From Planctomycetota bacterium (GTDB taxonomy: Bacteria; Planctomycetota; Planctomycetia; Pirellulales; PNKZ01), in NCBI GenBank assembly GCA_018242585.1, contig JAFEBQ010000033.1, forward strand, positions 62,001 to 126,000: 64,000 nt of DNA, in the 5' to 3' direction. The notes under the pieces are model-generated. The model saw only the letters and a program-made list of their open reading frames with translations. It was not told where the DNA came from and did not search any database. Positions 22,846 to 30,004 of this stretch are shown here, piece after piece (position 1 is the first letter of the stretch; each line of letters starts with the position of its first letter). The translations under genes and the position numbers were made by a program.

Positions 22846-24189
22846 TTATCGCGAGGCGGCTCGCCAGACCACTTCGTCGCTGGCTACCGCGTTACTGGCC
22901 GCGGCACGCACCGGAGTGGTGTCGACGGTGGTGTAGGTGACCGGCAAGCTGGCCAGTTGCGAGGCGTTCGCGCCGGCGTTCAGGGTGAGTCGGCTGTCGG
23001 CGTCGATCAGCCGCGGGCTCGAGGCCGGCTGGGTCGGCGCGGCCGGGCGATAGGTGTCGGGAATCGGCGACATCGGCACGCGGCCAGTCGTCGGAGCGCC
23101 CGAGCCTTCGAGGCTGGCCCCCGAGTTGTTCGTGTTCGGCACAAACGTCCGCGGAGCGCTATCGGCGGGAGTTGTCGTGGCTGCCGGGGCTTGCTGCGTG
23201 GCTGGCTGTTGCGTCGCGGGTGCGGTGGTCGTCGTGGCCGCTGGCGCGGTGGTCTGGTTGTAATAGATCACCGGAGCGGTCGTGCCGCTTGGCGCTGTCT
23301 GATACGTGGTCGCGGCACCATTGGTGATTACGGGCGAGGTCACGACGGTCGTGGTCCCGCTGGCCGGCGCCGTGGCCCCCGGCGCGCCTTGATAGGTGAC
23401 CGCAGGTTGGGCGTACGTGACCGTCGCGCCGCCAGCATAGGCCGGCGTCGTTGTGTACGAAGGGATCGTCGTCGCTCCGACGGCGTAGCTCGGGGCGTAA
23501 TTGCTCGACACCGGTGCGGGCGCGCCCGTAGCAAACGTGGTTCCTGGCATGGTCGTCATGGCGGGTGCAGTGGTCATCGCCGGCGCCGCGTAGGTCGGCA
23601 TGGCCGTGACGCCCCTCGTGGTCGGACAAGTCGCGCAACCTGCGGCGTAGCCAACCGCTGGCGCGGCACAGGCCGCTGGAGCACAGGTCGCGGCCGGCGC
23701 GGCATACGCCGTCGGCACGGCGTAGGCGGTGGTCGGCGCGTAGTACGCGCGGGTCGGAGCGGCCACCGTGTAGGGGCCGGCCGTGGTCACTGCTGCGGTC
23801 GGGGCGTAATAAGTTGTCGAGGCGGTGGCCACCACCGGTGCGGCGGGCACGGCATAGACCAGGCGATTCGTCGTGTACGGCAGCCAGCGCGTTTGCTGCG
23901 TCCAAGTGGTGACGGGACGTTGCGCGCTCACGCCGGTGGCCGATGGGCAAATCGAGCAGCCGGCGGGCTGCATCGTGGTGACCGGCGCGTAGACCGTCAC
24001 GGGGCGATAGTACGTCTGGGGCACGTACTGCACGAATTGCGGGCCGCTGACGGCATAGGTCGCCGGCAGGGGTGCCGCCGCTGACTTGTGCCAATTGAAC
24101 AACAGTTGGGCTTGAGCCGAACTTGGCGCCACCGCGGCCAATAGCAAACCTGCGAGCGACAACAACGGGACGCGAACGGCGGCGTTCAT
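22846..24189 (-). CDS. Secreted Thr/Ala/Pro/Tyr-rich low-complexity protein
   Basis: This 447-residue protein has a clear signal peptide (hydrophobic LLSLAGLLLAAVAPSSAQA, cleavage near residue 28). The mature part is built from irregular repeats rich in Thr, Ala, Pro, Val and Tyr (YAVPTAYAAPAATCAP, TTTTAPATQQPATQ). Two short CxxC islands, CSICPSATG and CATCPTTRG, break the pattern. There is no enzyme domain. It is probably an extended extracytoplasmic or wall-associated protein, possibly glycosylated on Thr, but that is inference. It is transcribed alone with its own strong terminator. The long open frame on the opposite strand (22792-24084) is a composition artefact. Confidence 0.85.
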   Translation of the reverse strand: MNAAVRVPLLSLAGLLLAAVAPSSAQAQLLFNWHKSAAAPLPATYAVSGPQFVQYVPQTYYRPVTVYAPVTTMQPAGCSICPSATGVSAQRPVTTWTQQTRWLPYTTNRLVYAVPAAPVVATASTTYYAPTAAVTTAGPYTVAAPTRAYYAPTTAYAVPTAYAAPAATCAPAACAAPAVGYAAGCATCPTTRGVTAMPTYAAPAMTTAPAMTTMPGTTFATGAPAPVSSNYAPSYAVGATTIPSYTTTPAYAGGATVTYAQPAVTYQGAPGATAPASGTTTVVTSPVITNGAATTYQTAPSGTTAPVIYYNQTTAPAATTTTAPATQQPATQQAPAATTTPADSAPRTFVPNTNNSGASLEGSGAPTTGRVPMSPIPDTYRPAAPTQPASSPRLIDADSRLTLNAGANASQLASLPVTYTTVDTTPVRAAASNAVASDEVVWRAASR

Positions 24190-27021: not shown

Positions 27022-28419
27022 ATGACTGGCTGGCGAATCGGTTTAGGACTGCGACTTGGCTGGGCGAGCCTGGCGATGTTGGGCGCTTTGTGCGCTGCGC
27101 CGACGGCCAGCGCCGCCAAGCCCGACCCGGCGGCTGAGGCCGCCAAGGAACTGGGTTTCGAGGCCGACGACGCGCCCCACATCTGGCCCCAGTGGCGCGG
27201 CCTGGGCGGTCGCGGCGTGACGGTCGACGCCAAGATTCCCGATCCGTTGCCTGACCAGGCGACGATGCGCTGGGAATGCCCGCTGGGCGTGGGGCTGTCG
27301 AGTCCGGTCGTCGCGCACTCTCGGGTCTTTGTTACCGATCGCCAGGGAATGACCGAGCGGGTCATTGCCATCGACGCCAACACCGGCAAGCCAGCCTGGA
27401 CGCGCGACCATCCGGTCGATTTCGACCCGCACATGGTCGGACGCCGGCATGGGAACGGCCCCAAGAGCACGCCGCTGGTCGATGCCGAGAGTGTATACAG
27501 CCTGGGGATCGCCGGCTGGTTGGTCTGCTGCGACGCCAAGACGGGCAAGGTCCGTTGGAGCGCCGACCTGGCGGCCGAGTATGGCCAGCAGCAACCGCTT
27601 CCCGAGGGGCGCGCGTACGTGGTGCGCGAAGAAGCGGTGATCGTCCCCACCGGGGCCGGCGTCGGCGCGCCGGTGCCGTTGTTCGGCTACACGGGCTCGC
27701 TGGTGGCGGTCGAGAACTTATTGATCTGTCCGGTCGGCGGCTCGCGCGGCGCGACGGTGATGGCCTTTGAGCGAGCAACTGGCAAAGTGGTTTGGAAGTC
27801 GTTGAACGATCATGTTTCGTACTCATCGCCGGTGGTCGCCACCTTGGCCGGCAAGCGGCAGATTGTTTATATGACCGGCTCACGCGTGGTTGGGCTCGAT
27901 CCGGCCAGCGGGAATCTGCTGTGGAGCTATCCGTTCCAGTTGCAATATGACGAAAGCATCACCACGCCCATCGTCCTGGGGAACCTGGTGGTGGTGGGTG
28001 GCACGGGCGCGCCGCTGACGGCGCTGGCCATTGGCGAGACCGGCGGTTCGTTCGGCGTGAAACTGGCTTGGGAGAATTTCGACCTGACCAGCTATCTATC
28101 GACCATGAGCGAACACGAAGGTTTTTTGTATGGCCTGAGCGACGGGGGCGAGTTCATGTGCGTGCGGCTGACCGACGGGGCGACGATTTGGAGCGGCGGC
28201 AAGACCGGCTACTACACGACCCCGGTTCGCGATCGAGATCGGCTGCTGTGCCTGACCGAGCGGGGAACATTGTTGGGCGTGCCGGCGCGGCCCGAGGCGT
28301 ATCGCAACCTGGGGCGCGTGCAGTTGAGCCCGAATGAGTGTTGGACGTCTCCGGCAGTGATCGGCGGGCGCATCTACGTGCGGGCGGTCGGCGCCGTGCG
28401 CTGTTTTGAGTTTAAGTGA
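27022..28419 (+). CDS. Secreted PQQ-type beta-propeller protein (BamB/quinoprotein-like)
   Basis: This 465-residue protein has a signal peptide (LGWASLAMLGALCAAPTASA, cleavage near 33) and repeated PQQ-type blades such as RVIAIDANTGKPAWTRDHP, GWLVCCDAKTGKVRWSADL and RVVGLDPASGNLLWSYPF. A leading HIWPQWRGLGGRGVT matches the PQW-RG opening of many planctomycete quinoprotein-like proteins. It has no dehydrogenase residues I can point to, so a structural or sugar/alcohol-binding role is as likely as an enzyme. GAGAG lies upstream of the ATG. The gene is followed by a family A repeat element. Confidence 0.9.
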   Translation: MTGWRIGLGLRLGWASLAMLGALCAAPTASAAKPDPAAEAAKELGFEADDAPHIWPQWRGLGGRGVTVDAKIPDPLPDQATMRWECPLGVGLSSPVVAHSRVFVTDRQGMTERVIAIDANTGKPAWTRDHPVDFDPHMVGRRHGNGPKSTPLVDAESVYSLGIAGWLVCCDAKTGKVRWSADLAAEYGQQQPLPEGRAYVVREEAVIVPTGAGVGAPVPLFGYTGSLVAVENLLICPVGGSRGATVMAFERATGKVVWKSLNDHVSYSSPVVATLAGKRQIVYMTGSRVVGLDPASGNLLWSYPFQLQYDESITTPIVLGNLVVVGGTGAPLTALAIGETGGSFGVKLAWENFDLTSYLSTMSEHEGFLYGLSDGGEFMCVRLTDGATIWSGGKTGYYTTPVRDRDRLLCLTERGTLLGVPARPEAYRNLGRVQLSPNECWTSPAVIGGRIYVRAVGAVRCFEFK

Positions 28420-28451
28420 CGCGCATACTTTCACGACCTTCCACAGGCGCT

Positions 28452-28536
28452 GGGTGCCATGCTCAAGCCCTTAAGGCTTGAGCATGCCTGAAGAACGCTT
28501 CGCATGCTCAAGTCTGCTGACTTGAACATGGCACCC
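28452..28536. repeat. Family A 85-bp inverted-end element, copy 1
   Basis: The ends are GGGTGCCATGCTCAAG and the inverted GGGTGCCATGTTCAAG. Inside, ATGCTCAAGCC pairs with GGCTTGAGCAT, and CATGCTCAAGTC pairs with GACTTGAACATG. A second copy is at 40190-40272. Both lie a few dozen bases after a stop codon. Confidence 0.88.
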
Positions 28537-28568
28537 ATTGGTTTCGGAGTGACGTGAAGACAGCGCAC

Positions 28569-28617
28569 AAAAAATGCCGTCCCGCGGCCTGGTTCTGTGC
28601 AGGCGGCAGGACGGCAT
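28569..28617 (-). terminator. Rho-independent terminator of the alpha-CTD-like gene
   Basis: On the minus strand a long stem (ATGCCGTCC...GGACGGCAT with inner pairing) is followed by six T residues, 31 bases after the stop codon at 28649. Confidence 0.85.
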
Positions 28618-28648
28618 GGCACTGGACGGTCGAATTGTTTTTGCTGGG

Positions 28649-28921
28649 CTACGCGCACTGCGTGTCGCGGCGGCGCTGCCGGAAGAAGCCGACGCTCTCG
28701 AGCGATTTGTAAACTTCTTCGAGCGTTTTTTCGCCAAAGTTGGAAATGCTGAGCAGATCGTCCGGCGTGCAATTCAGCAGATCGCTGACGCTAAAGATGC
28801 CGCGCTCTTCCAGGCAGTTAGTCGTGCGAACTGAAAGTCCGATCTCGGCGGTGCTCATTTCCAGCCGGCGGCTCAGGCTCTTTTCCTGTTCGTCGGCGAC
28901 ACTCAAACGAACGCGCGTCAT
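28649..28921 (-). CDS. Stand-alone RNA polymerase alpha C-terminal-domain-like protein
   Basis: This 90-residue protein is almost only an alpha-CTD: IGLSVRTTNCLEERGIFSVS, then LLNCTPDDLLSISNFGEKTLEEVYKSL. The residues that contact UP-element DNA in E. coli alpha have counterparts here (Arg265 as Arg32, Asn268 as Asn35, Lys298 as Lys65, Ser299 as Thr66), and the helix-hairpin-helix core is intact. No alpha N-terminal domain precedes it: the first 27 residues are a charged leader, and a strong GGAGG site sits before the ATG. It could bind promoter DNA or compete with RNA polymerase alpha. It has its own terminator and appears monocistronic. Confidence 0.9.
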   Translation of the reverse strand: MTRVRLSVADEQEKSLSRRLEMSTAEIGLSVRTTNCLEERGIFSVSDLLNCTPDDLLSISNFGEKTLEEVYKSLESVGFFRQRRRDTQCA

Positions 28922-29058
28922 GTTTCCCTCCTTAGAAACCAGAGAACAAGGTCCATCTTGTCGTCGCGCGCGGGCCTTCGTGTGGCCCAGGCGATCGCGA
29001 CGGCGGGAAGTATAACGCCAGAAGCTCGATTTGCGCTGGAAAAAGCTGGGAAGAAAAA

Positions 29059-29214
29059 GTTGCTGGTTGCTAGCGGCGAGTTGCTAGCAAGGAATGGTCC
29101 GTTGTCAGTGGTCAGTTGTCCGTTGAAAGGAATGCGGAAATCGAGCGTTCAACAACTGACTACGGACCACGGACGACTGACATCCGCGTCCCTAGCCCCT
29201 AGCCTCTAGCCCCT
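29059..29214. repeat. Quasi-periodic intergenic words (GTTGCTAG, GTCAGTTGTCCGT, CTAGCCCC)
   Basis: Three kinds of short irregular repeats sit side by side: GTTGCTGGTTGCTAG and GAGTTGCTAG at 29059-29088, GTC[A/C]GT-type words at 29097-29125 and inverted at 29150-29182, and CTAGCCCC repeats at 29191-29214 that enter the end of the rhomboid-like gene. Similar words recur at 30872-30936 and 46371-46403. Confidence 0.6.
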
Positions 29215-30004
29215 CCTCTTCCCCCTTCACATGCTCGTGCGCGTGGAGATGACGCGAACAATAGCCGCACGTGCCGGCGCACTGGCCGCAGTAGCGGAAC
29301 TCCATCTCGGGGTTCGTCAGGTTCGTCATGCCGCAGGTCGTGCAGCGGTGGAAGGCTTCGCGCTTGGGGACGGCGCGCTTGGCCTGGTTGACCATGTGCC
29401 GGCGACCTTGAACCATTCGGTTCTTGATGTCGCCGCCGAGGAACAACAGGTAGTTCAACAGCGACGCCAACATCGCCAGCCGCGCCGGCCAACTTCCCTC
29501 GACCAGCACGAACAAATAGCCAATCCAACTCAACAACGCCAGGTATTTAATCTTGACCGGAATGATGAAGAACAGCATCAGTTCAAAGTTGGGAAACAAC
29601 CAGGCGAACGCCAGAAAAATCGACGCCCCGATAAAGACGTTGTACGTCGGTTGGTCGGGGGTCAGGAACGCCACCCCCACGGTCGCGGCATAGCCAATCA
29701 GCAAGAACAAGTTGTAGCGCGGCGCCCCCCAAGTTTGTTCGAGCGCGGAACCCATCAGGTAGAACAGGTAAAACCCAAAGAACGCGAAGATTGGATGGAT
29801 CTTCGGCGGGTCGGCGATAAACGAGAGCAACCGCCACGGCTCGCCGTGCAAGACCAGCGTGGGCACGAGCGGCAGCGCGTTCAGCTTCGCCGGCTCGATC
29901 ATCCAAACGCCGTACGCCAAGACCTGGACGGCCAGAATGCCGAAGGTCAGATTCGGGATCGCCCAGCGGGCGAGCGATTGCTTGAGGCGGCGCCAGCGAT
30001 TCAT
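29192..30004 (-). CDS. Rhomboid-like membrane protein with C-terminal zinc ribbon
   Basis: This 270-residue protein has about six hydrophobic segments. It shows EPWRLLSF in the first loop, GSALEQTWG after the second segment and IGASIF where rhomboid proteases have the catalytic Ser motif (Ser128). The usual catalytic His in the last segment is not visible; Asn184 occupies a similar place. It is therefore probably an inactive, derlin-like rhomboid fold. The cytosolic tail carries three CxxC pairs (Cys221/224, 239/242, 246/249), followed by a His-rich RHLHAHEH. It starts 15 bases after the hisG stop, on the same strand. Confidence 0.8.
   Translation of the reverse strand: MNRWRRLKQSLARWAIPNLTFGILAVQVLAYGVWMIEPAKLNALPLVPTLVLHGEPWRLLSFIADPPKIHPIFAFFGFYLFYLMGSALEQTWGAPRYNLFLLIGYAATVGVAFLTPDQPTYNVFIGASIFLAFAWLFPNFELMLFFIIPVKIKYLALLSWIGYLFVLVEGSWPARLAMLASLLNYLLFLGGDIKNRMVQGRRHMVNQAKRAVPKREAFHRCTTCGMTNLTNPEMEFRYCGQCAGTCGYCSRHLHAHEHVKGEEEGLEARG

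Follow-up and report, generated by a model that had tools for sequence, protein, structure and literature searches.

We found that a short gene in the window (the whole 64,000-nucleotide stretch of Pirellulales DNA analysed here) encodes a stand-alone C-terminal domain of the RNA polymerase alpha subunit (alpha-CTD); we refer to this free alpha-CTD as sCTD (Table 1). Residues 11–75 of the product match Pfam PF03118, RNA_pol_A_CTD (E 1.2e-18; 67 bits, cut-off 23.8), and no other Pfam family scored above its cut-off. NCBIfam RpoA models matched sCTD through their CTD only, at 38–59 bits against cut-offs of 228–523, and the score against NF005841, a model of a small hypothetical protein of 95 amino acids, was 14.5 bits, below the cut-off of 115. 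At 90 amino acids, the ORF lacks the N-terminal assembly and dimerization domain of RpoA, and no dimerization module was found in sCTD. The closest solved structures are the Bacillus subtilis alpha-CTDs in the Spx complex (3gfk and 1z3e; E 3.5e-16 and 1.8e-15, respectively). In a structure model built with RpoA and TPR-CTD rows (pLDDT 72), the top 20 structural matches were all RNA polymerase alpha chains (Z 10.2–8.9; Foldseek agreed on the alpha-CTD fold). A model from sCTD rows alone, without RpoA rows, was poor (pLDDT 52) and was not used. The initial annotation had described the protein as essentially the alpha-CTD alone, and both the Pfam score and the fold of the model agree with this description. 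sCTD is a real, conserved gene coding for a stand-alone alpha-CTD.

Table 1. Features at the sCTD locus (positions in the window)
Feature	Position	Strand	Basis or remark
Free alpha-CTD gene (sCTD), 90 aa	28649..28921	-	ORF, ATG start; orthologues in 39/40 relatives
Shine-Dalgarno GGAGGG	28926..28931	-	4 nt before ATG
-10-like TATACT, G at -2 (extended -10 type)	29009..29014	-	Promoter alignment
UP-element-like A/T tracts, TTTTT at 29040-29044 and 29054-29058	29040..29058	-	Sequence and profile of 56 orthologous promoters
Two GCTAGC sites (29069-29074, 29083-29088)	29069..29088		Place of the orthologues' upstream palindrome TGCTAGCA
GC-rich, terminator-like hairpin with UUUUUU after it, 3' of sCTD	28569..28617	-	RNA fold

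sCTD lies outside the S4–rpoA–L17 cluster. Its neighbours are a 313-aa ORF on one side and, on the other, a gene for a PQQ-type beta-propeller protein. Elsewhere in the window, positions 22846–24189 (minus strand) hold a 447-aa ORF that is very rich in Ala, Pro and Thr. The genome from which the window comes (5.57 Mb, 99.9% complete) holds four PF03118 matches: one in rpoA, two in a TPR protein and one that is sCTD itself. Its rpoA encodes 330 amino acids, has its CTD and is placed in the S4–rpoA–L17 cluster. Because this rpoA is full length with its own CTD, sCTD is not a split subunit, and an origin from a split or degraded rpoA is ruled out. The circumstance that the initial annotation named as refuting its proposal, a genomic rpoA without its CTD, is thereby excluded. 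The TPR protein (L001:1207-2538 on contig C31) has 443 amino acids, with TPR repeats and two alpha-CTDs in tandem (PF03118, 149.7 bits). It seems to be phylum-wide, as at least three PF03118 matches were present in 56 of 59 planctomycete genomes, so that alpha-CTDs in proteins other than RNA polymerase are common across the phylum.

Orthologues of sCTD with 63–79% identity were found in 39 of 40 relatives, the genome's own copy being among the 39. In an order-wide search with a 35-row sCTD alignment and a threshold of E ≤ 1e-23, sCTD was present in 187 of the 197 Pirellulales genomes sampled, and 186 of these 187 carried a single copy. Three of the ten genomes without a match at this threshold (G447, G467 and G469) carry a diverged match in a short frame; the other seven gave RpoA matches only, plus TPR-protein matches in six. 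All 51 matching genomes in a class sample of 198 came from the same order. In a phylum sample of 294 genomes, 16 genomes of the order matched at E ≤ 7.3e-38, and the best match outside the order was 2.2e-22, in RpoA-length frames; no sCTD was found in the other planctomycete orders sampled. The order is identified as Pirellulales by the titles of named records; carriers among these include Blastopirellula marina, Botrimarina, Aeoliella and many metagenome-assembled genomes (MAGs), one of which is titled Alphaproteobacteria and is probably mis-binned. sCTD is a core gene of the planctomycete order Pirellulales. A chance ORF is ruled out by the orthologues in relatives and across the order, together with the strong purifying selection described below. 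One genome (G032) has a second, degenerate sCTD-like copy at L197:573-830, with Tyr at 269 and Ala at 296, in an open frame of 222 amino acids.

Outside these genomes, 60 plasmid records matched sCTD. We rejected plasmid-borne free copies: three of the best hits were full rpoA genes in ribosomal clusters, in records filed as plasmids. Fourteen phage records, all unannotated, also matched, and the one that we inspected held no features. A search of the open-licence PMC literature, with subscription papers outside its scope, returned no paper on a natural free alpha-CTD. sCTD is apparently undescribed; the domain itself is already known, and its order-wide, free, core-gene form appears to be new.

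In a tree of CTDs (129 rows, 58 columns), sCTD formed a single clade (SH-aLRT 100) on a long branch, nested within a clan (SH-aLRT 99) made up of the RpoA CTDs of its class. Both CTDs of the TPR protein formed separate groups of their own. The tree, whose few columns do not fix the exact sister, points most readily to a single duplication of the RpoA CTD within the lineage.

To gauge constraint on sCTD relative to the CTD of RpoA, we compared 58 core positions in the 29 genomes having both rows. Mean pairwise identity was 84.8% for sCTD and 73.7% for the RpoA CTD, and in 374 of 406 genome pairs sCTD showed the higher conservation; within one genome, the two domains share 48% identity. The pN/pS values were 0.101/0.666 for sCTD and 0.182/0.680 for the RpoA CTD, indicating strong purifying selection on sCTD with about equal pS. 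That sCTD is held more tightly than RNA polymerase's own domain is the strongest sign that it has a role of its own. Across the 35 rows, 38 of the 90 positions are invariant.

The conserved positions include the whole DNA face of the domain. The numbering of sCTD is offset by 233 from that of E. coli alpha, in agreement with the structural alignment to 8y5t_A2 (model residues 17–83 on 250–316), so that Arg32, Asn35, Asn61, Gly63, Lys65 and Glu69 correspond to R265, N268, N294, G296, K298 and E302, and Thr66 stands in place of S299. According to passages in PMC7822876 and PMC5101437, R265 and N294 of the E. coli alpha-CTD enter the minor groove, and K298 (through a salt bridge) together with K291 contacts phosphates. 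In sCTD, R265, N268, C269, N294, G296, K298 and E302, along with T for S299, are present in 35 of 35 rows and in 80 of 80 named loci, which bears out the original identification of Arg32, Asn35 and Lys65 as UP-element-binding residues. By contrast, position 298 is K in all 35 sCTD rows and T in all 34 RpoA rows of the order. T also occupies this position in the RpoA at L003:736-1728, in the RpoA rows listed from other members of the class and phylum and, mostly, in the two CTDs of the TPR protein. Of the CTDs found in these genomes, sCTD alone thus carries the complete E. coli set at these positions. At position 293, the RpoA CTDs of the order have R and sCTD has S; R293 could offset the lack of K298 in RpoA.

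The surfaces that presumably serve protein contact look different. At position 273, which along with 285–288 we take to be a protein-contact position of E. coli alpha, sCTD has Arg or Lys in 35 of 35 rows, compared with Glu in 33 of 34 RpoA rows; at 288 it has Asp in 34 of 35, RpoA having mostly Gln. Position 261 is Gly in all 35 sCTD rows, and the RpoA of the order is non-acidic there too (Lys, Asn, Gln, His or Ser); position 259, which with 261 forms the acidic sigma contact of alpha-CTD (D259/E261), is Glu in 35 of 35. In E. coli, E261 helps to contact R603 of sigma (PMC5511352). Residues that are invariant in, and specific to, sCTD are T266, T267, G274, I292, Y304 and F312 (E. coli numbering), and sCTD ends in GF(Y/F)R where the RpoA of its own genome has GLRLGM.

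The sCTD gene has expression signals of its own. GGAGG lies at most 25 nt upstream of the start in 31 of 35 orthologues. The RNA fold of positions 28562–28625 (minus strand), spanning the terminator-like hairpin, has an energy of -37.4 kcal/mol (z -5.82; 0 of 200 shuffles equally stable); a simple terminator scan, whose loop limit is 8, missed this hairpin. An Rfam search of 28300–29600 gave no match. Upstream of the gene, a scan for sigma-70 pairs returned none, and no -35 hexamer was found. Across the 35 discovery loci, TATAYT recurs upstream of sCTD, in most cases 80 to 117 nt ahead of the start codon, with GCTAGC further up. Among 80 named loci, which share some contigs with the discovery set and are therefore not fully independent of it, TATAYT occurred between -140 and -50 in 56; a control stretch had it in 4 of 80. 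GCTAGC was found upstream in 53 (expected 2.8% per locus) and the palindrome TGCTAGCA in 33.

When the 56 promoters were aligned on the -10 element, G stood at -2 in 84% and there was no -35 consensus. The same alignment revealed a T tract at -39 to -36 and an A run at -31 to -26 from the start of the hexamer, or about -51 to -48 and -43 to -38 from the predicted transcription start. These are the places of the E. coli UP element. An A/T tract occupied this zone in 46 of 56 promoters; the two control stretches gave 8 of 56 and 14 of 56, and 24% of random stretches had such a tract. UP scoring left out 22 of the 80 loci, which had no usable -10; the remaining 58 had a mean score of 8.07 of 14, compared with 5.35 at 37 other GNTATAYT sites in the same loci (p 1.5e-7), and shifted frames scored 4.6 and 4.3. 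We also applied a strict rule (AAA 26–28 nt before the -10), which 15% of E. coli -10 promoters and 3.2% of those in Mycobacterium tuberculosis satisfy, according to PMC5511352. AAA was in this place in 19 of 58 sCTD promoters and 5 of 114 controls (Fisher p 1.1e-6), and in 7 of 25 in the discovery set; as sCTD promoters share ancestry, these promoter counts are not independent. The window's own promoter scored 10 of 14. Its two T5 tracts sit 26–30 and 40–44 nt upstream of the -10 hexamer, so that it has T tracts, rather than AAA, at the strict-rule place.

In the orthologous promoters, the distance from TGCTAGCA down to the -10 is often about 57 or 68 nt. The spacing between palindrome and -10 showed helical phasing (Rayleigh p 5.5e-5 for a 10.5-bp period, with similar values between 10 and 11 bp; 46 sites with near-copies removed), which is suggestive only because the sites share ancestry. 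GCTAGC by itself is not rare in the window (15 found, 10.07 expected), and some Pirellula-like loci have GCCGGC doublets in the stretch where TGCTAGCA lies elsewhere. A regulon pattern search of 40 genomes returned 54 places, 7 of them before sCTD; the other 47 yielded no clear second target, and a reversed control pattern matched more often than the real one. Next to the promoter region, positions 29090–29205 (plus strand) form a low-complexity intergenic stretch with variants of GTCAGTGGTCAGTTGTC that resembles a dispersed repeat.

In 18 of 29 genomes examined, sCTD is divergent to a gene for a UvrD/PcrA-type helicase (Pfam UvrD-helicase, 283 bits, with a weak Tudor domain), 205–691 nt separating the two matches in the six genomes measured. 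In the other 11, among them the window's genome, which has the helicase on another contig, the genes are apart; GCTAGC then precedes sCTD in five genomes and uvrD in one. Where the genes are apart, the palindrome is thus not supported as a uvrD element. Downstream of sCTD there are often genes for a DUF3592 protein (16 of 21), a small protein (13 of 21) and an ATPase (14 of 21). Despite this frequently kept order, we did not adopt an operon with these genes because an opposite-strand PQQ-type gene intervenes in several genomes.

The unfailing DNA face, the changed protein faces, the missing tether to RNA polymerase and the UP-like promoter of the gene itself together suggest a minor-groove binder that acts in trans. 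Our preferred reading, held tentatively at a little less than an even chance, is that sCTD is a dedicated regulator, independent of RNA polymerase, that binds UP-type sites, those of its own promoter included. The RpoA CTD would have been duplicated without the N-terminal assembly domain in an ancestor of Pirellulales to become this regulator. Its retained helix-hairpin-helix DNA face is expected to recognize minor grooves rich in A/T, as in UP elements, and several positions that alpha-CTDs use for contact with sigma or activators appear to have changed. sCTD would most likely occupy UP-type sites, either competing there with the CTDs tethered to RNA polymerase or offering a platform to a dedicated partner, perhaps a reader of TGCTAGCA. 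Competition, with feedback on the sCTD gene, is the simplest consequence, and a partner is equally plausible. Through its occupancy, sCTD could tune UP-dependent promoters, and the first predicted target is its own promoter, where an extended -10 without a -35, UP-like tracts and a palindrome at activator distance would allow feedback. PMC2801614 describes the isolated B. subtilis alpha-CTD as shifting a promoter fragment at 5 uM, with a UP-bearing promoter binding better and competing, and describes Spx as joining this domain on DNA. Since a lone alpha-CTD binds DNA weakly, in the micromolar range, and sCTD has no dimerization module, a partner or high abundance would be needed. The initial annotation proposed that a free alpha-CTD could occupy UP elements or meet activators; the A/T tracts of the sCTD promoter favour the former, and the latter is less supported because the protein-contact positions 261 and 273 differ from those of RpoA. 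A wider proposal, possible but rather unlikely in our estimation, is an order-wide layer of UP occupancy, in which sCTD competes in trans and also regulates its UP-dependent, -35-less promoter by feedback, in a lineage whose RpoA lacks the K298 contact. The UP element may also serve only the strong transcription of the sCTD gene by RNA polymerase, with no role for sCTD.

Several other roles deserve consideration. sCTD might act off DNA as a protein decoy or adaptor: by binding activators, NusA-like factors or sigma region 4, which normally meet the alpha-CTD, it would serve as a co-regulator or anti-activator, in a manner converse to that of Spx, which masks the alpha-CTD. Conservation that extends beyond the DNA face to the many other invariant positions, including the six sCTD-specific residues from T266 to F312, fits such a role. 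However, the Gly at 261, in place of the E. coli residue that contacts sigma R603 (PMC5511352), the basic residue at 273 where RpoA has Glu, and a DNA face kept without exception make us regard it as unlikely. That invariant DNA face would suit an abundant, nucleoid-associated protein that binds A/T-tract minor grooves chromosome-wide and affects transcription secondarily, and the strong Shine-Dalgarno sequence and UP-bearing promoter fit high expression. Against such an architectural protein, sCTD is a single domain in which no oligomerization segment was recognized, and we assign this possibility a distinctly low probability.

A function tied to the neighbouring helicase, as an accessory factor in repair or transcription–repair coupling, is suggested by the divergent gene pairs, but sCTD is still conserved in the 11 genomes, the window's included, in which the genes are apart, and the palindrome there tracks sCTD and not uvrD; we hold this role to be very improbable. 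That the 90-aa ORF holds the domain alone might also be expected of a split rpoA subunit, a pseudogene or a chance ORF. Against these stand the intact rpoA with its CTD, the presence of sCTD in 190 of 197 genomes of the order when the three diverged matches are included, a pN/pS of about 0.15, and the gene's own promoter elements and terminator, which together leave them almost no probability.

The preferred reading of sCTD as a free binder of UP-type sites can be set against known relatives of the domain. With the alpha-CTD of RNA polymerase, sCTD shares the fold, the domain length and all DNA-contact positions, with structural Z up to 10.2. Unlike sCTD, alpha has an N-terminal assembly domain and, in this order, T rather than K at 298; Gly at 261 and Arg or Lys at 273 also set sCTD apart, as does its GF(Y/F)R ending in comparison with the RpoA of its own genome. 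The planctomycete TPR protein likewise gives this genome alpha-CTDs that are not part of RNA polymerase, but it has 443 amino acids, a TPR region and T at 298, and its CTDs form separate tree groups. In IMG/VR, 65 viral contigs (L285–L349) encode alpha-CTD-like domains, in proteins of at most 110 amino acids in 11 cases and of 111–200 in 44, with K at 298 in 59 of 65. Like sCTD, these proteins are small and hold an alpha-CTD-like domain; unlike it, most have extra segments, and with 27–53% identity to sCTD they are not orthologous. Viruses may use free alpha-CTDs too. Francisella alpha1 and alpha2 also represent a lineage-specific duplication of alpha, but both are full subunits assembled into RNA polymerase (PMC3294249). 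The Spx–alpha-CTD complex of B. subtilis comes close in that an alpha-CTD taken on its own binds promoter DNA in vitro and forms a complex with a partner, but the domain there is a laboratory fragment of RpoA and not a natural free protein (PMC2801614).

The use of UP elements is normally ascribed to the DNA sequence and to the pair of CTDs that every RNA polymerase carries. A conserved free alpha-CTD would let the cell tune this use in trans through one small protein, and would make sCTD a natural tool for titrating alpha-CTD sites. The proposal is easily tested with one 10-kDa protein and one promoter fragment. sCTD adds a core transcription gene to Pirellulales, an order in which little is known of gene regulation.
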